A stretch of DNA of 42,253 nucleotides from Bacteroidales bacterium (GTDB taxonomy: Bacteria > Bacteroidota > Bacteroidia > Bacteroidales > VadinHA17): NCBI GenBank assembly GCA_024762655.1, contig JANTHB010000024.1:1-42253 (forward strand), written 5' to 3'. Every line of letters begins with the position of its first letter. The stretch's first letter is position 1. Positions 3,076 to 35,679 of this stretch are shown piece after piece. Position numbers and translations under genes: made by a program. Below the pieces are notes generated by a model. That model was not told the origin of the DNA, searched no databases, and saw only the letters and a program-made list of their open reading frames with translations.

Positions 3076-4785
3076 TTACTGTACAATGGCCTTAAATTGG
3101 TCGTTTTCAAAGTATTTGGCAAATTCCATGTCGGTTTTGGCTTCTTCTTTCAGTTTAGGATCCATTCCGACAGCTTTTTTCAGGCTTTCGAGAACGCCGT
3201 TGTCATTACCCAACCGGGCGTTTACGACAGCTTTCAAATACTCTTTCCATTTGCATACATGATCGATAGCGTCCAGTGTGCTCTTGGCTCCTTGTGCATC
3301 GCCGTTGAGTAATTTGGCCAGTGCTGCATTGAAGGAAGGTTCGGTACCAAAATAGTTGACGGCATCCTGATATTTCGCATTGATAATAGCGATGGTTCCC
3401 AGCCCGAAGTTGGACTCTTTGGTGGGTTTCTGCATGGATGTAAAGTACTCGGATGCTTTATCCAGGTTTCCTTTCATGAGTTCGACAAAACCGAGGTTGC
3501 TTTTGACCGGGTCGATGTCTTTTAATGCCTGGGCTTGTTTGAGTGCTTTTTCGGCATTGGCGATATCGCCTTTCTGGAGATAAGCAGCTCCGACATTGTT
3601 GATGGCACGGATGCACCGCGGTTCTTTATCGAAAGCCATTTGATAATATTTCAGCTTTTTGTCAAGATCTTTCACAAGACCTGCAGCATGCAGCATAGCT
3701 TCGAGGGAAACGGTGTCCGGTTTAGTTTCAATATAATTCAGGATTTCATCATCCGACAATCCGACCAGGTCGGCATTGACACGAATGACCGAACGACGTA
3801 ATTCGGGAAGGATATCCTTTTTTAGTTGGTCATAAGCTTCTGCCATATTTTTGATTTCTTTTTCCCGTACATCGGGATCCGAGTACATGGAAAGAACACG
3901 CAGGATAAGATCTTTGTCTTTCATGTTAGAAGCGGCGACCAGCTTTTTGAACCCTTCCCAGTCTTCAGCCGTGGAATGATCTGTAAATTTTGCGTCGCCT
4001 TTTGGCAAAACCTTATCGGATTTGAATGTCTTCTTCATAAATTTATCCACTACTTCAGCACGCTTCTTACTAAGTTTATCATTAAACTTGTAAGGTCCGT
4101 CGGGAGAAGCATAACCGTGGATTTCGCTTCCGGTATATTTCAGGTTCGGCGTTTCCGGCAATTGCTGGATAAAACCGAACAGGTCTTTGACATCTTCAGC
4201 TTTCAGCTCCGAACGGCGGATATTGTAACGGTTAATTACAAAGTTAATGTCCGCTTCGCCTGTTTTGGGAACGACTCTTTGATAATGATCGGGTATGTAA
4301 GTCGGCCGGGGCATTTTTTTCACCAGCGTGGGGGTGGCAATCACTCCGTCGGCCAGCGGAACGGGTTCGAAGTCAACAGACTTGGTTTTGATAGAAGCGG
4401 TAGATCTTAATACCAGATGAGAAATTCTCATGCTGTCAGAGAAATCCACTACTCCGTTGTAGGTAAACTTACCGCCTGTATAACTTATGGTTTTGTTATT
4501 GGCTTCTACGCTTTCACCCTGCAAGGTAACAGGGGTATAAGCTTGTTCACCACCATTGTAAACCAGAACCGGGGTGGCCGTAACCGTGGCCTTTTTGTTG
4601 AAATATTTTTCAGGAAACTGTCCGGTAATGGTAACTTTCACTTGTCCGGCATGTTCTTCCAATACTTTCGGGGTAACCTGATAACTAATATTCCCGGCTT
4701 CTTTTTTCATTTTATTCAGACCACTACAACTGCTAAAAACAGCAGCAGTAACAATCACGAGAGATACATAAATTAGTCTTTTCAT
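3076..4785 (-). CDS. OmpA-like/TPR outer-membrane lipoprotein
   Basis: This is a 569-residue exported protein. Residues 1-19 form a signal peptide ending in a plausible lipobox, FSSC, with the acylated cysteine at position 20. A beta-rich N-terminal region follows. An OmpA-like domain lies around residues 175-275, with the segment SEIHGYASPDGPYKFNDKLS followed by KKRAEVVDKFM; this fold normally binds peptidoglycan. The C-terminal third (about 360-540) consists of tetratricopeptide helices, such as NVGAAYLQKGDIANAEKALKQA. The family is common in Bacteroidales, and the likely role is structural, linking outer membrane and cell wall. The exact function is unknown. The gene is monocistronic, with an A-tract upstream. 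Confidence 0.78.
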   Translation of the reverse strand: MKRLIYVSLVIVTAAVFSSCSGLNKMKKEAGNISYQVTPKVLEEHAGQVKVTITGQFPEKYFNKKATVTATPVLVYNGGEQAYTPVTLQGESVEANNKTISYTGGKFTYNGVVDFSDSMRISHLVLRSTASIKTKSVDFEPVPLADGVIATPTLVKKMPRPTYIPDHYQRVVPKTGEADINFVINRYNIRRSELKAEDVKDLFGFIQQLPETPNLKYTGSEIHGYASPDGPYKFNDKLSKKRAEVVDKFMKKTFKSDKVLPKGDAKFTDHSTAEDWEGFKKLVAASNMKDKDLILRVLSMYSDPDVREKEIKNMAEAYDQLKKDILPELRRSVIRVNADLVGLSDDEILNYIETKPDTVSLEAMLHAAGLVKDLDKKLKYYQMAFDKEPRCIRAINNVGAAYLQKGDIANAEKALKQAQALKDIDPVKSNLGFVELMKGNLDKASEYFTSMQKPTKESNFGLGTIAIINAKYQDAVNYFGTEPSFNAALAKLLNGDAQGAKSTLDAIDHVCKWKEYLKAVVNARLGNDNGVLESLKKAVGMDPKLKEEAKTDMEFAKYFENDQFKAIVQ

Positions 4786-12210: not shown

Positions 12211-12371
12211 GAAAGGTCAAAAAGTCAAAAGGGCAAAAGGTCAAAGAGTCAAAAGGTCGAAAAGTCAAAAGGTCAAAGAGTCAAAAGGTCGAAAAGTCAA
12301 AAGGTCAAAAAGTCGAAAGGCCAAAGAGGAAGAAGGGTCAAAAAGTCATAAGGTTAAAAGGTCGAAAGGGG
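12211..12371. repeat. Octanucleotide satellite, consensus AAAAGGTC
   Basis: About 20 head-to-tail 8-bp units of the form RAAARGTC fill this interval, with one 9-bp unit at 12331-12339. Units 4-7 (12235-12266) are repeated exactly as units 8-11 (12267-12298), a 32-bp higher-order repeat: AAAAGGTC, AAAGAGTC, AAAAGGTC, GAAAAGTC. Similarity decays to the right. The plus strand is almost all purine apart from the TC closing most units. It fills most of the gap between the potassium channel gene and DUF2851. Open frames in it are low-complexity and not genes. Confidence 0.93.
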
Positions 12372-31728: not shown

Positions 31729-32906
31729 GATCTTTGTTTTTTCAATGCTTTGTAAATACGTTCAAACGCTTCTTCGACGATCTTCCGCGGGCAGGCCACA
31801 TTGAGCCGTACAAAACCTTCCCCGCCGGGACCGTACATGGCTCCGTCATTTCCCCCCACCTTTGCCTCTTCCGTCATGAATTGCTTCAGCTCTTCCGCGC
31901 CCATCCCTGTTCTCCGGAAATCGAGCCACAGGAGATAGGTGGCTTCGACAGGGGAGAGAGTCACCTCCGGCATCTTTTCCGCCAGGAATGTCCGGGCATA
32001 ATCCACGTTGCCCCGGATATACTCCAGCAGGGCATCCAGCCATTCTTCCCCGTGGTTATAGGCAGCAATGGAGGCTTCCATACCGAAGAGGTTGCCCATG
32101 CCGAGATGCAGGCTTTCGATTACTTCCTTAAAACGTTTCCGCTTTTCAGAATTGCTGATGATCACCGAGGAGGTGCTCAGTCCGGCGAGGTTGAAGGTTT
32201 TGCTCGGAGCCATACAGGTGATGGTGTGAGCCGCGATCTCTTCCGAGAGGCTGGCCAGCGGTGTATGATGATATCCGGGTAGGGTCAGGTCGGCATGGAT
32301 CTCGTCTGAAACAATCAGCACATCGTTGGCTGCACAGATTTCGCCCAGGGTGCGTAGTTCCTCTTCATTCCAGGAACGGCCTACGGGGTTGTGAGGATTG
32401 CTCAGGAGCAACAGCTTTGCTTCTTTGGCTTTTTCTGCCAGATCATCGAAATCGAAGACATACGTTCCGTTTTCTGATTCTTTCAGACGATTGTTGAGCA
32501 ACCTGCGGTGGTTCAGGTTAACGGCATGAAAAAACGGATGATATACCGGCGATTGCAGGATCACCCCGTCACCGGGTTGGGTGATCCCCTGGACCACCAT
32601 GTTGAGCACCGGTACCACGCCGGGACTGTATTGTATCCATTCTTTTTCGATATTCCAGCCATGTCGTTTGTTCATCCAGTTAACAATGCTTGCATAGTAA
32701 GCATCCGGCCGGAAGGTATATCCATAGATGGGGTGTTCAGCCCTCCTGCGGATGGCTTCGCTCACCGCCGGCGGCACGGCAAAGTCCATGTCCGCCACCC
32801 ACATGGGAAGTACATCGTTGGTGCCGAAGACTTTTTCTAATCCGTCGTACTTGAAGGAGTGGGTGCCTTTACGATTGATCACCCGGTCAAAATCAAAATC
32901 TGCCAT
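31725..32906 (-). CDS. MalY/PatB-type PLP-dependent aminotransferase or C-S lyase
   Basis: This is a fold-type I PLP enzyme. The N-terminal block RKGTHSFKYDGLEKVFGTNDVLPMWVADMDFAVPPAV is characteristic of the MalY/PatB group, which cleaves cystathionine or cysteine conjugates (beta-lyase). LLSNPHNPVGRSWNEEEL binds the cofactor, and the Schiff-base lysine is Lys236 in APSKTFNLAGLSTS. The frame extends to 33014, but the extra 36 residues come from the repeat tract; ADFDFDRVINRKG starts at ATG 32906, giving 393 residues. It precedes carA with a 4-bp overlap. The substrate is uncertain, as some members are aminotransferases. Confidence 0.88.
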   Translation of the reverse strand: MADFDFDRVINRKGTHSFKYDGLEKVFGTNDVLPMWVADMDFAVPPAVSEAIRRRAEHPIYGYTFRPDAYYASIVNWMNKRHGWNIEKEWIQYSPGVVPVLNMVVQGITQPGDGVILQSPVYHPFFHAVNLNHRRLLNNRLKESENGTYVFDFDDLAEKAKEAKLLLLSNPHNPVGRSWNEEELRTLGEICAANDVLIVSDEIHADLTLPGYHHTPLASLSEEIAAHTITCMAPSKTFNLAGLSTSSVIISNSEKRKRFKEVIESLHLGMGNLFGMEASIAAYNHGEEWLDALLEYIRGNVDYARTFLAEKMPEVTLSPVEATYLLWLDFRRTGMGAEELKQFMTEEAKVGGNDGAMYGPGGEGFVRLNVACPRKIVEEAFERIYKALKKQRS

Positions 32907-32930
32907 TTCATTCTCAATCAGTATAGGTGG

Positions 32931-32938
32931 CAAAGATA
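32931..32938 (-). promoter_or_regulatory. Candidate -7 box of the malY-carA operon
   Basis: The minus-strand TATCTTTG matches TAnnTTTG about 25 bp upstream of the malY-like ATG. No clear -33 TTTG is present; the satellite mosaic begins 45 bp further upstream. Confidence 0.38.
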
Positions 32939-32982
32939 AGGAAATAAGTAATAAGGGAGAAGGGATGGATACGGGAAGGAAA

Positions 32983-33066
32983 GCTCGATGCTCGAGGCTC
33001 GATGCTCGAGGCACGAAGGAAGTCGAAGGTCAAAAGTCCAAAGCCAAAGGTCAAAGAGCAAAGCGC
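32983..33066. repeat. Two heptamer arrays: GCTCGAK and AAAGGTC-like
   Basis: 32983-33017 is five 7-bp units: GCTCGAT, GCTCGAG, GCTCGAT, GCTCGAG, GCACGAA. The first four form an exact 14-bp repeat. After 7 bp, 33025-33066 is six 7-bp units: GAAGGTC, AAAAGTC, CAAAGCC, AAAGGTC, AAAGAGC, AAAGCGC. The second array uses nearly the same words as the octamer satellite at 12211-12371, one base shorter. Confidence 0.88.
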
Positions 33067-33071
33067 ATCTT

Positions 33072-33180
33072 CTTTGCGCAACTTGGCGGATCCTTGGCGT
33101 ATCTTTGCGTAACAGTTTGGAGGATAATGTAGAAGAGCTATTACGCAAAGTGCCGCGAAGCAGCGCGAAGAACCGCAAAG
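33072..33180. repeat. Foldback of CTTTGCG-type decamers
   Basis: The left arm (33072-33112) is four units, CTTTGCGCAA, CTTGGCGGATC, CTTGGCGTAT and CTTTGCGTAA. The right arm (33141-33180) is four exact decamers that are, read on the opposite strand, CTTTGCGGTT, CTTCGCGCTG, CTTCGCGGCA and CTTTGCGTAA. The innermost 10 bp on each side are perfectly complementary across a 28-nt loop, and the outer units pair at the CTTnGCG cores. The result is a roughly 40-bp imperfect stem built from a tandem array and its inverted copy. Confidence 0.88.
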
Positions 33181-33267
33181 GGCAAAGAGCGTAGAGCGAA
33201 GAGCCAGGAGCCAAGAAAACGATGAGGCGATAAAGCGATGAAGAGATGAAGCGATAATGCGAAGTGC
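33181..33267. repeat. Heptamer array AGCSAAG followed by octamer array GATGAAGC
   Basis: 33181-33215 reads GGCAAAG, AGCGTAG, AGCGAAG, AGCCAGG, AGCCAAG. 33221-33267 reads GATGAGGC, GATAAAGC, GATGAAGA, GATGAAGC, GATAATGC, GAAGTGC. The period changes from 7 to 8 bp within a few bases. Confidence 0.82.
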
Positions 33268-33303
33268 ACAGAGCCCAGAGCAACTCTCAACTAATAACTT
33301 TTA

Positions 33304-33362
33304 ACTTTAGGCACTTTAGGCACTTTTAACTCCCCCCTAAACCCTCATCCCTAAACCCTCAA
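33304..33362. repeat. 9-bp array ACTTTAGGC then heptamer array CCCTAAA
   Basis: 33304-33330 is ACTTTAGGC, ACTTTAGGC, ACTTTTAAC. 33335-33362 is CCCTAAA, CCCTCAT, CCCTAAA, CCCTCAA. The second resembles a plant-type telomere repeat only by chance of composition. A short CTCAAACC doublet follows at 33381-33396. Confidence 0.8.
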
Positions 33363-33364
33363 AC

Positions 33365-33434
33365 GCAGCCGTCAGGCTGCCTCAAACCCTCAAACCCACC
33401 TTCGCCTCCTCCGGAGGCTTCGTCGGGCGAAGCC
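33365..33434. terminator. Cluster of three GC-rich hairpins after the NodB-like gene
   Basis: Hairpin 1 is GCAGCC-GTCA-GGCTGC (33365-33380). Hairpin 2 is GCCTCC-TCC-GGAGGC (33404-33418). Hairpin 3 is GGCTTCG-TCGGG-CGAAGCC (33416-33434). Hairpins 2 and 3 share three bases, so they exclude each other. They lie 36-105 bp downstream of the minus-strand gene that stops at 33470. There is no U-run, so the role as terminator or 3' stabiliser is uncertain. Confidence 0.5.
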
Positions 33435-33469
33435 TTCAAACTACAAACTCCCCACATGCCGGGCAAATT

Positions 33470-35377
33470 TTATCTGAAAGCGACCTCAATCTTATGTTCC
33501 CCTGTGCCGGCAGGGATCACAATGGCAGATACCATTTGTTTCAACGGCGTCTTTTCTCCGTCGACCTCTATGGATGAAATATTCCCTTTCTCTTTCATAA
33601 GCCAATCGGCCATTTCAAAGGTCCACCGGGAAGGGTGATCGCTGAAATAATGGCAGTAATGGGGATCGTAATCGATGCTCAGCAACAGGGACTTTTTCGG
33701 GGCATCCCATTGCCCGGCGGTGGCCGCATGGATATAACCGATAAATTCATTGATCCCGATAAAGCGGGAGCGGGGATATTGTTCAAATATTTTCGCAAAA
33801 GCTTCCGGGTCTTTTGTTATCCCGAAATCATGTCCGTTAGGCAGGGCTCCGGTGATCAAAGGAGCGTCGGGCGTACCGTTAAAGTCCCAGTCCAGAACGA
33901 CCATATCTGTACCGAGATACCCTGCATTCCAGCCAGCCCAACCGAAACCTGCCCGGGCAGCCAGCAGGAAGGTATTGTTCGGATAAGAGAGGGAGACACC
34001 GTTACCCCCTGCACAAAATTCAAGGGGGACAACGCCAAACTGCTCCGTAAGCCACTCTTTACCGGTCCTCAGCCGCCAGAGTTGTTCGGCAGCGGGGATC
34101 TCTCTGTGCCTGCGGGTATCGCCGAATTCACGGTACCAGCCTACTTCGGCTTTTTCCCGATTCAGGGGTGTGCCGTACCATCCTGGTGCCGAGACAAGAT
34201 CCGGCTGCATATGCGTCAGTCCATGACACATCACTTCAAAAACACCCTGTTTAACACCTTTGTCAAATCCTTTTTTGGCAGATACATAATCCTGATGTAT
34301 GCCGAAACCGTCTGTGAAGTTCTGTGTCCAGGAAGGTTCCAGGCGCTGTTTCTCATCGCTGACAAAGGCAGGGACAAAATTGATATTAAGGATCGCGTTC
34401 CTTTCCAGGAGGGGTTTGATCAGATATTTTTCGATCACATCTTCTGTCAACTCCGGATATTGCCAATGTTCGAGATACACGTTCTGAGCTCCTCCGGGAT
34501 CATCCATGATCATGATCACTTCCTTATCCCAGGTTTTATACAAATTATATCCGATGGTCCAGGTAATGGCACGTCGCAACAATGTACGTATCTCCGGAAA
34601 CAGAAAAAGGTATCCGGGATCATTGCCGATCCAGACGGTATGAGCCCCTGATGACAATGTTTTGGCGGTCACCTGCGGCAAAGAACCTTGTTTTACAAGG
34701 GTGACGGTCCCGTTTTTCACTTCCACCTGTTCCCTTTTGAGATGAAGCCCGTAGTTATACCGGGAATCAACCCCTTCATCCAGCACAAACGGGGAAGAGA
34801 GTCCCTTTGTCAGGAAATGTTTTGTTGTAACTTTCATTTTTTTACTGCTCTCCCAGGACCCATCATAGTTTAAACCCAATAAAGACTGGATGGGCTCAGG
34901 GAAGATACGGTCGGTCAGGGCGATCAGGCCTGTTCCGTAATCATTAACTATCTCTTTCAGGATAGTATAATCCGGAGGGATAACCTTCTCACTCTTGTTA
35001 ACATCCCATATAATGGTTCCGTATTTAGGCTTTCCATGCATATCCAGAAACATATATCTGTCAAGTATTTGCTGGTCCAGTCTGATCACATCAAAAGGTA
35101 TAGACCAGGATTTCAACAAGATCATAAGATGATGGAAATCTTCCTGCCCCGGCAGGATGGATTGGGTAAAATAACCGGAATATCCGGGCAGTGGTTTAGG
35201 ATGCGTAACCATATACCCAGCAGGGTCGTCCCATTGATCGCCGATAATCACCAATACCCTGAAAGGTTTTAGCAGGTTTCCACCGGAATCTTTCGCAAGA
35301 ACAGGAGCCCCGGCAACTAAAAAAAGGAATAGTGTTAACATGACAGGAACAACTGGGGTAGAATTTTTTTTGTTCAT
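33470..35377 (-). CDS. Exported polysaccharide deacetylase-like (NodB-fold) protein
   Basis: The chosen ATG (35377) gives 635 residues with a signal peptide (VVPVMLTLFLFLVAGAPVLA). The N-terminal half looks like a flavodoxin/glutamine-amidotransferase-like alpha/beta region (FRVLVIIGDQWDDP; GTGLIALTDRIFPE). The middle carries NodB-type metal-binding motifs: MIMDDPGGAQN (Asp292-Asp293) and CHGLTHMQPD (His385 and His389, spaced H-x3-H). The later sequence includes PLEFCAGGNGVSLSYPN. The family usually removes N- or O-acetyl groups from glycans; this version is large and the substrate is unknown. The frame to 35416 adds 13 non-signal residues and is rejected. It diverges from the GH20 operon. 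Confidence 0.7.
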   Translation of the reverse strand: MNKKNSTPVVPVMLTLFLFLVAGAPVLAKDSGGNLLKPFRVLVIIGDQWDDPAGYMVTHPKPLPGYSGYFTQSILPGQEDFHHLMILLKSWSIPFDVIRLDQQILDRYMFLDMHGKPKYGTIIWDVNKSEKVIPPDYTILKEIVNDYGTGLIALTDRIFPEPIQSLLGLNYDGSWESSKKMKVTTKHFLTKGLSSPFVLDEGVDSRYNYGLHLKREQVEVKNGTVTLVKQGSLPQVTAKTLSSGAHTVWIGNDPGYLFLFPEIRTLLRRAITWTIGYNLYKTWDKEVIMIMDDPGGAQNVYLEHWQYPELTEDVIEKYLIKPLLERNAILNINFVPAFVSDEKQRLEPSWTQNFTDGFGIHQDYVSAKKGFDKGVKQGVFEVMCHGLTHMQPDLVSAPGWYGTPLNREKAEVGWYREFGDTRRHREIPAAEQLWRLRTGKEWLTEQFGVVPLEFCAGGNGVSLSYPNNTFLLAARAGFGWAGWNAGYLGTDMVVLDWDFNGTPDAPLITGALPNGHDFGITKDPEAFAKIFEQYPRSRFIGINEFIGYIHAATAGQWDAPKKSLLLSIDYDPHYCHYFSDHPSRWTFEMADWLMKEKGNISSIEVDGEKTPLKQMVSAIVIPAGTGEHKIEVAFR

Positions 35378-35679
35378 GATTTGTGCTTTTTTGAGAACAG
35401 AACCTAATCTAAACATAAATTATTTCTCCCGTAACAATATTAGCGACAGGTCATTTCAAGTCGTTTTCATTTAAGGGTAAATTTCACTAAAAATATTTGT
35501 AACTTTTGAATATACATTTTTTTTCACTAATATAACACTATTATTCATGAATTTAACTGTAAGATATGAAACCATAGTGGAAATAGGGCACAGCAGGAGA
35601 AACATCCGGTGATTCGATCCTGAAACCATAAATCATAATATCCTGGATATTTTTAAAACGCTTCGTGAAGCAACCAGAA
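35378..35679. promoter_or_regulatory. Divergent promoter region with a spaced direct repeat
   Basis: This AT-rich gap of about 300 bp separates two divergent exported-enzyme genes. The nonamer TTTCACTAA occurs at 35482-35490 and 35522-35530, exactly 40 bp apart (about four helical turns), each followed by A/T. It could be a paired operator. A TTTG (35505-35508) followed 19 nt later by TAATATAA is a weak plus-strand promoter match. No RNA gene or small coding region was seen. Confidence 0.4.

Follow-up and report, generated by a model that had tools for sequence, protein, structure and literature searches.

How does one bacterial intergenic gap come to hold a succession of short tandem arrays that differ in both period and sequence? 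The question is raised by a gap in the window, by which we mean the whole stretch of 42,253 nucleotides that was analysed, taken from a draft genome of a Bacteroidales bacterium. An initial annotation had described the gap as a mosaic of unrelated satellites with almost no spacer, and had suggested either a process that writes short repeats de novo or a site that collects them, possibly with a boundary or 3'-end role. We compared the gap with its own genome, with other members of the genus and with known repeat systems. We consider it rather probable that the gap is a tolerated slot, in which about 480 bp of repeats dispersed in the genus have gathered.

Layout of the gap and clumping of tandem arrays

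Both flanking genes lie on the minus strand, in agreement with the initial annotation; reading frames are crude calls throughout. The 648-aa protein has no Pfam or NCBIfam match, so that the function of this neighbour gives no clue to the mosaic. The features are as follows.

32907..33469, no strand: whole intergenic gap, 563 bp, separating the 648-aa gene from the aminotransferase gene
33470-35416, minus: 648-aa gene, one flank of the gap
ATG taken at 32906, minus: class I/II aminotransferase gene (Pfam PF00155), the other flank
32929..32964, minus: promoter-side block containing TATCTTTG, kept in the related genome G003 (alignment with G003)
32983..33016, plus: (GCTCGAK)n array, period 7/14 (TRF), with look-alikes in sister loci L226 and L227
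33020..33056, plus: (AAAGGTC)n array, period 7/14 (TRF)
33052..33059, plus: CAAAGAGC left of the decamer module, a possible target duplication or a chance product of the heptamer array
33072..33180, no strand: decamer module, about 110 bp (own-genome copies and decamer motif)
33072-33109: decamer arm, four CTYNGYG units at 33072, 33082, 33093 and 33103
33082-33107: period-11 array inside the decamers (TRF)
33144-33180: inverted decamer arm, four CRCNRAG units at 33144, 33154, 33164 and 33174
33183..33190, plus: CAAAGAGC right of the module, with the same two possible readings
33185..33216, plus: (AAGAGCG)n heptamer array, period 7 (TRF)
33216..33262, plus: (GATGAAGN/GATAAAGN)n octamer array, period 8/16 (TRF)
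33304..33326, plus: (ACTTTAGGC)n array, period 9 (TRF)
33335..33362, plus: (CCCTAAA/CCCTCAT)n array, period 7/14 (TRF)
33354..33397, plus: CCTCAAAC words on either side of a small hairpin, GCAGCCGTCAGGCTGC, at 33365-33380 (TRF, folding)
33380-33397: period-8 array (TRF)
33415..33435, no strand: hairpin AGGCTTCG-TCGGG-CGAAGCCT, directly 3' of the 648-aa gene (fold of 33296-33440)

TRF recovered the arrays where the initial annotation had placed them, and the inverted decamers follow a regular pattern, with a unit spacing of 10-11 bp, inside the 9-11 bp looked for, and inverted order; the mosaic is thus confirmed as real. Spacer is small, as had been claimed, yet present, for example at 33263-33303 and as the 34-base middle between the decamer arms. 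Seven tandem arrays were found outside the inverted decamer block. The arrays of the gap are individually short (each <50 bp) and mostly imperfect, with TRF scores of 35-61; they are weak one by one, but their number in a single gap is not.

The chance level was estimated with a fixed array count (TRF score of at least 34, period 5-20) in a 442-kb sample, made of twenty 20-kb stretches and the window itself, from a genome of 3,438,369 bases in 165 contigs. Each of 146 gaps was resampled five times, giving 730 first-order Markov gaps. By this rule the gap counts seven arrays, including the one inside the decamers and missing the one at 32983, since the crude gap starts at 33014. The Markov gaps held none, one or two arrays in 681, 45 and 4 cases, with two as the maximum, so that shuffled sequence does not equal the gap, which the initial annotation had named as an outcome that would speak against the mosaic if it did. 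Shuffled gaps had about 291 array-covered bases out of 36,195.

Among the sampled gaps, 0, 1, 2, 3, 4 and 7 arrays occurred in 118, 17, 5, 3, 1 and 2 cases (n = 146), with a mean of 0.37 per gap. With the gap of the window included, at least three arrays were present in 6 of the 146, against 0.9 expected at random (variance/mean 2.9), and in the whole sample 4.1% of the bases crudely called intergenic and 0.4% of those crudely called coding lie in arrays. The second seven-array gap (L104:6709-7364) is likewise a patchwork of unlike words. A gap with seven arrays is therefore not unique in this genome, and arrays clump.

The region 33296-33440 folds better than its shuffles (DNA z -2.80), through two local hairpins; this excess is absent in the other arrays (z -1.27 for 32975-33056, +1.67 for 33183-33300). 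No Rfam family reached its gathering score in the whole window. Elsewhere in the window, the (AAAGGTC)n family also appears as a 158-bp AAAGGTCA array at 12212-12369, which shows higher-order repetition every 16 bp and separates the gene for a TrkA-domain ion channel from a DUF2851 gene.

Array vocabulary and the same gene pair in related genomes

One alternative is that each array arose in place from random seeds in an unconstrained gap, by local slippage and nothing else. Imperfect short arrays with periods of 7-9 do occur in gaps of the same genome, and the array at 12212-12369, with its periods of 8 and 16, looks like a product of unequal exchange. However, GATGAAGN-type units stand at many unrelated sites in the genus: three in a row (pattern GATGAAGNGATGAAGNGATGAAG) were found in five of seven genomes of the genus and in none of the 53 others among the 60 searched, and the reversed-pattern control gave 0. 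The core of GATGAAGN is kept while its eighth base varies, the pattern being designed to let only N vary. In addition, a gene end is present twice together with its array, as a 103-bp segment with 83% identity on contig C6 of the same genome, and the decamer module, about 110 bp long, forms an inverted family. Such dispersal of arrays together with their flanks is not expected from isolated slippage, which as the whole explanation we regard as unlikely. That slippage lengthened the single arrays locally is, on the other hand, likely.

The sister genomes combine the same pieces in other ways. Among 34 loci with a GATGAAG array (35 of a larger number of array sites were fetched; L212, lacking an array by the pattern, was left out), 31 have at least one further array within 300 bp. 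The density near the GATGAAG arrays is 4.1 per kb (86 arrays); at a greater distance in these loci it is 0.58 per kb, a contrast exaggerated by a far zone that is mostly coding. In G003 one gap joins a decamer half-module, CCCTAAACCCTAAT heptamers and GATGAAG octamers, and a (CCCTAAA/CCCTCAT)n array is also found there, beside the half-module and GATGAAG (L193); another G003 locus holds a composite similar to that at 33354..33397 (L201). At L196 two GATGAAG arrays surround a decamer half-module. In G001, GATGAAG is followed by ATAACTTTTAACTTTAGGCACTTTAG, in the same order as in the window, and by AACTTTTAACTTTAGGCACTTTAG, matching the surroundings of the (ACTTTAGGC)n array (L202), and in G004 a heptamer array precedes GATGAAG, as in the gap (L213). 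By eye, words like those of the (ACTTTAGGC)n array adjoin decamer modules at L229, L230 and L231.

De novo writing is accordingly a poor fit as the whole story, given that unrelated sites in the genus carry the same units and that one array lies within the copied 103-bp segment. The term unrelated satellites needs qualifying, since the decamers form an inverted module with a link to GxxExxY genes (see below) and most of the other pieces have look-alikes in sister gaps. As judged by these sequence comparisons, the pieces are not fresh local inventions. On contig C6, the gene 3' end with its GATGAAG array was seen again behind another gene 1.6 kb away (L011 / L098:8460-8700, L022).

The 648-aa gene is patchy in its distribution (6 of 40 genomes searched, its own included). 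In G003, which belongs to the same genus, this gene ends at position 4574 and the aminotransferase gene begins at 4657 of one contig, leaving a gap of 82 bp. The well-conserved part of the alignment between the two gaps is the promoter-side block, which reads CTTATTAC.TATTTCCTTATCTTTGCC on the coding strand; it contains TATCTTTG, which we take to resemble the Bacteroidota -7 box, and its role as a promoter is putative. What differs between the two species is about 480 bp, from close behind one stop codon to just ahead of this block. No patchwork precedes the aminotransferase gene in five other members of the genus (L032 to L036, printed bases read by eye, with only some 70 and 190 bp of upstream sequence visible at L033 and L036). 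Since short gaps are common and the extra DNA consists of repeats, the difference would most simply be a gain in the lineage of the window, a direction read from a single syntenic relative, G003; a loss in G003 is possible. What had appeared as a gap of unlike satellites thus becomes a traceable difference: the same genes stand 82 bp or 563 bp apart, and the parts belong to a vocabulary of the genus. The proposal of a site that collects repeats fits these data, the G003 gap having no patchwork and unlike arrays clustering in sister genomes.

Might the mosaic instead be a selected element at gene boundaries, such as a terminator, an insulator, an mRNA-end or a protein-binding region? Among 44 GATGAAG-type arrays, 11 start within 25 bp of the end of a sense reading frame or overlap it, and 20 are located in gaps that follow a sense frame (the next frame being convergent for 12 and codirectional for 8, all crude). 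The hairpin at 33415..33435 adjoins the stop of the upstream 648-aa gene, and TAACTGA heptamers have been proposed as translational sites in Beggiatoaceae (PMC4679880). Yet array orientation is mixed over the 44, that of the window being antisense to both neighbours, and the mosaic is absent from the same gap in G003. That G003 lacks it but retains the promoter-side sequence speaks against an essential role as boundary or 3' end, and this suggestion of the initial annotation is not supported by the one syntenic relative. We rate a selected element as slightly less likely even than slippage on its own; for its two neighbours the mosaic is probably not functional, but tolerated clutter.

The decamer module and GxxExxY genes

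The comparison of the gap with its own genome gave 53 matched places, many of them for the decamer block or for GATGAAG. Copies of the module with 72-82% identity over 108-112 bp (L231, L229, L228, L002, L004) stand at other sites in the same genome, in G001 and in G004, and partial copies were found at L225 and L230. The module is multi-copy and non-coding and has inverted arms, as a MITE does. It folds weakly better than its shuffles (z -1.74; 12 of 200 shuffles were as good). The CAAAGAGC copies on its two sides both lie in heptamer arrays, and no clean target duplication was found for a solo module.

At one site in the same genome, on contig C123, two copies of the module bracket a 125-aa gene, which encodes a GxxExxY protein (TIGR04256, E 6.6e-43; PF13366). 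Three PF13366 genes were found in this genome, on contigs C123, C139 and C86 and none on C24, the contig of the window; we call the module of the gap a solo module, and not a GxxExxY element, because no such gene lies beside it. The other two GxxExxY genes are flanked by short inverted words, one at a contig edge and the other with CACGAATG-type hairpins. The C123 site exists in three states: module, gene and module in the genome of the window, a decayed module without the gene in G004, and a 26-bp imperfect palindrome, CTGTTTCGCGAAG-CTTAACGTAACAG, in G001. Solo module and gene-bearing form can therefore share one place. The module of the window is inside out relative to those of C123, with the CTYNGYG arm first and the CRCNRAG arm second; Mangrovibacterium marinum has this same order immediately in front of its GxxExxY gene (L113), where it may represent a junction of two ends. 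On contig C86, the GxxExxY gene is followed by more copies of its hairpin repeats, which enclose decayed gene pieces (L063, by eye).

Flank words were read in 25 of 29 loci of relatives and in 80 loci, the best of a larger number, from a scan of 84,980 species, each represented by a single genome. Most GxxExxY flanks among the matches listed carry inverted decamer-like words that differ by locus (CACAGAG, CGCAAAG, CACGGAT, CACGAAG and others). For scoring, the 200 bp downstream were reverse-complemented and compared with the 200 bp upstream. A threshold of 24 was chosen once the score distribution was known, and the motif CRCNRAG once the flanks had been read; the threshold was left unchanged for a second set. 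From the 32 loci of the genome and its relatives 28 were taken, leaving out L082 (stop), L090 and L091 (partial) and L092 (contig end); with the 80 they make 108, of which 102 were scored and six dropped (no 150-bp flanks, or N).

Among the matches listed, 71 of the 102 GxxExxY loci have inverted flanks at or above the threshold and 31 lie below it, compared with 3 of 303 sample ORFs of the own genome and 7 of 93 control ORFs from the same loci. When loci with homologous neighbours were merged, again among the matches listed, the median exceeded the threshold at 46 of 72 sites, and at 36 of 62 single-locus sites. For the 75 genome-scan loci, among the matches listed, matched flanks have a median score of 29 against 19 for flanks of different loci, showing that the inverted arms agree more within a locus than between loci. 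A wider score that also counted hairpins within a flank was rejected: it separated cases (71/102) poorly from controls (86/303 and 34/93), and only the between-flank score was relied on.

The second set came from 249 genomes of the phylum of the L191 genome (Methylobacter) and comprised 28 of the 29 loci fetched from the matches (L244, with an internal stop, was dropped). The threshold was reached by 15 of the 28, and 13 remained below it; among the controls it was reached by 10.7% of the mismatched pairs, by 1 of 280 shuffles and by 1 of only 8 drawn from the same loci. By their neighbours these loci form nine sites, six of them with a median over the threshold (3 of 4 among single-locus sites); with only nine independent sites, this set is a weak replication. 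In the 60 genomes, a PF13366 gene was present in 11 of the 13 with a triple decamer and in 18 of the 47 others (p 0.003, uncorrected for kinship).

Several Flavobacterium genomes have GxxExxY genes at the same neighbours (L119, L130, L131, L143, L180; by eye), and one cluster in the second set unites 13 of the 28 loci with the same neighbours. To judge from gene order, such repeated sites may be either ancestral or favoured.

The AlphaFold2 model of the GxxExxY protein has a mean pLDDT of 95.4 (38 aligned proteins). Foldseek gave no solved match at E <= 0.001; the best, at E 1.9e-3 and probability 1.00, is lambda exonuclease (6m9k), followed by the Cas4-like 4ic1 (Cas4-type protein SSO0001). 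VIA-align gave Z 10.1 and rmsd 4.3 over 100 aligned residues for 4ic1_G, and all other listed rows are below 8, which may mean only a common arrangement. E27, D67, E77, K79, Q91 and Y95 are invariant in the GxxExxY alignment A2. A sequence search of the PDB gave a single match, a ribosomal protein at E 0.46. Given the fold matches, the Pfam name PDDEXK_3 and the invariance of E, D, E-x-K and Q...Y, the protein is likely a PD-(D/E)XK nuclease, as predicted from the model. The open-licence literature, searched by titles and abstract openings, contained no link between such a nuclease and decamers, nor did we find there a role for the GxxExxY family; the association may be new.

We propose, as a tentative possibility, that the inverted decamers found across many bacterial genomes (CACAGAG, CGCAAAG, CACGAAG and their kin) are ends and solo relics of a mobile element with GxxExxY as its only gene, whose nuclease would recognise them, drive breakage and copying, and, in making gaps recombinogenic, seed mosaics of several periods. 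The most interesting part of the mosaic is in this respect a pointer to a gene family of predicted nucleases with decamer ends, and the tie gives a testable prediction on how bacterial intergenic repeats spread.

A further repeat of 261-268 bp, with TAAAGTTTCGCAC-type inverted ends, contains decamers (own-genome matches L010, L015, L019, L028). At L010 it is flanked on either side by GTTATTAAT, and at L015 by TTAATGAT; a clear duplication was not found at L019 and L028. The repeat also occurs at the contig-end loci L012, L013, L014, L017 and L018; as several copies end contigs, they probably break the assembly.

Origin of the mosaic and comparison with known systems

A single composite mobile element, inserted once with all arrays as cargo, would agree with the order of pieces that the window has in common with L202 or L213. 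However, the genome holds no second full mosaic but only pieces, the longest of 109 bases, and the combinations of pieces differ among the loci seen, which makes this origin quite improbable. Least credible of all is an artefact of assembly or binning. The draft has 165 contigs, and several decamer copies lie at contig ends, but the copy in the window is separated by about 9 kb from the nearer end of its 42-kb contig, no array in the gap reaches 50 bp and the sister genomes have the same array vocabulary.

We thus return to the tolerated slot, situated behind one gene's stop codon and ahead of the next gene's promoter. The region 33072-33180 would be a gene-less derivative, or an end junction, of GxxExxY-type elements, and the 7-, 8- and 9-mer arrays would belong to short-repeat families of the genus. 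Seeds may arrive as short segments copied between gaps, by recombination or template switching, with nesting and movement of pieces, and may then grow and drift through slippage and unequal exchange. A gap that already holds repeats would be a better partner for further copying, so that arrays would clump.

Comparable repeats are known in other bacteria. The STRR repeats of cyanobacteria are short intergenic heptamer arrays dispersed over the genome. Three reports describe related cases. Intergenic direct heptamers, TAACTGA and others, with several units per gap, were described by MacGregor (2015; PMC4679880); in Gramella and Aequorivita other heptamer arrays lie beside TAACTGA, and relatives with the same neighbours have shorter gaps and no obvious repeats, while Elizabethkingia has 'larger assemblages of heptamer repeats' (PMC4679880). 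The phenomenon of heptamer assemblages is hence already in print for other units. The gap resembles them in holding several short direct arrays beyond chance and in the short G003 gap between the same neighbours; its units are different, and it also contains 8-mers, 9-mers and a module of inverted decamers tied to a family of predicted nucleases. Rehm (2015; PMC4692102) reported dispersed heptameric SSRs of Xanthomonas and Nostoc and cited their over-representation. These are, like ours, short intergenic heptamer arrays scattered over the genome, but as described they form one G-rich family with quadruplex potential, whereas the gap joins many unlike units. BrickBuilt of Porphyromonas gingivalis is a MITE of Bacteroidota with a minisatellite (PMC4596501). 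It shares with the decamer module an intergenic location in Bacteroidota, inverted ends combined with tandem repeats and many copies; it has a 23-bp unit inside, whereas the module consists of two arms of four decamers related to GxxExxY flanks.

The GxxExxY loci themselves (TIGR04256 / PF13366) are often bracketed by decamers of the type seen in the window; the gap has no such gene. Small inverted elements in gaps, apparently coupled to one lone enzyme gene, are also a feature of REP/REPIN-RAYT systems. There the enzyme, RAYT, is a transposase of the Y1 type, whereas the gene linked to the decamers has a predicted PD-(D/E)XK-like fold. A link of RAYT to the decamers was considered and is not supported: none of the six Y1_Tnp loci of the genome has three decamers in a row, two of the six lying within 70 bases of a contig start, and one run of two decamers was found (L281). 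Two of the Y1 transposase genes (L279, L280) have near-identical flanks with palindromes of their own.
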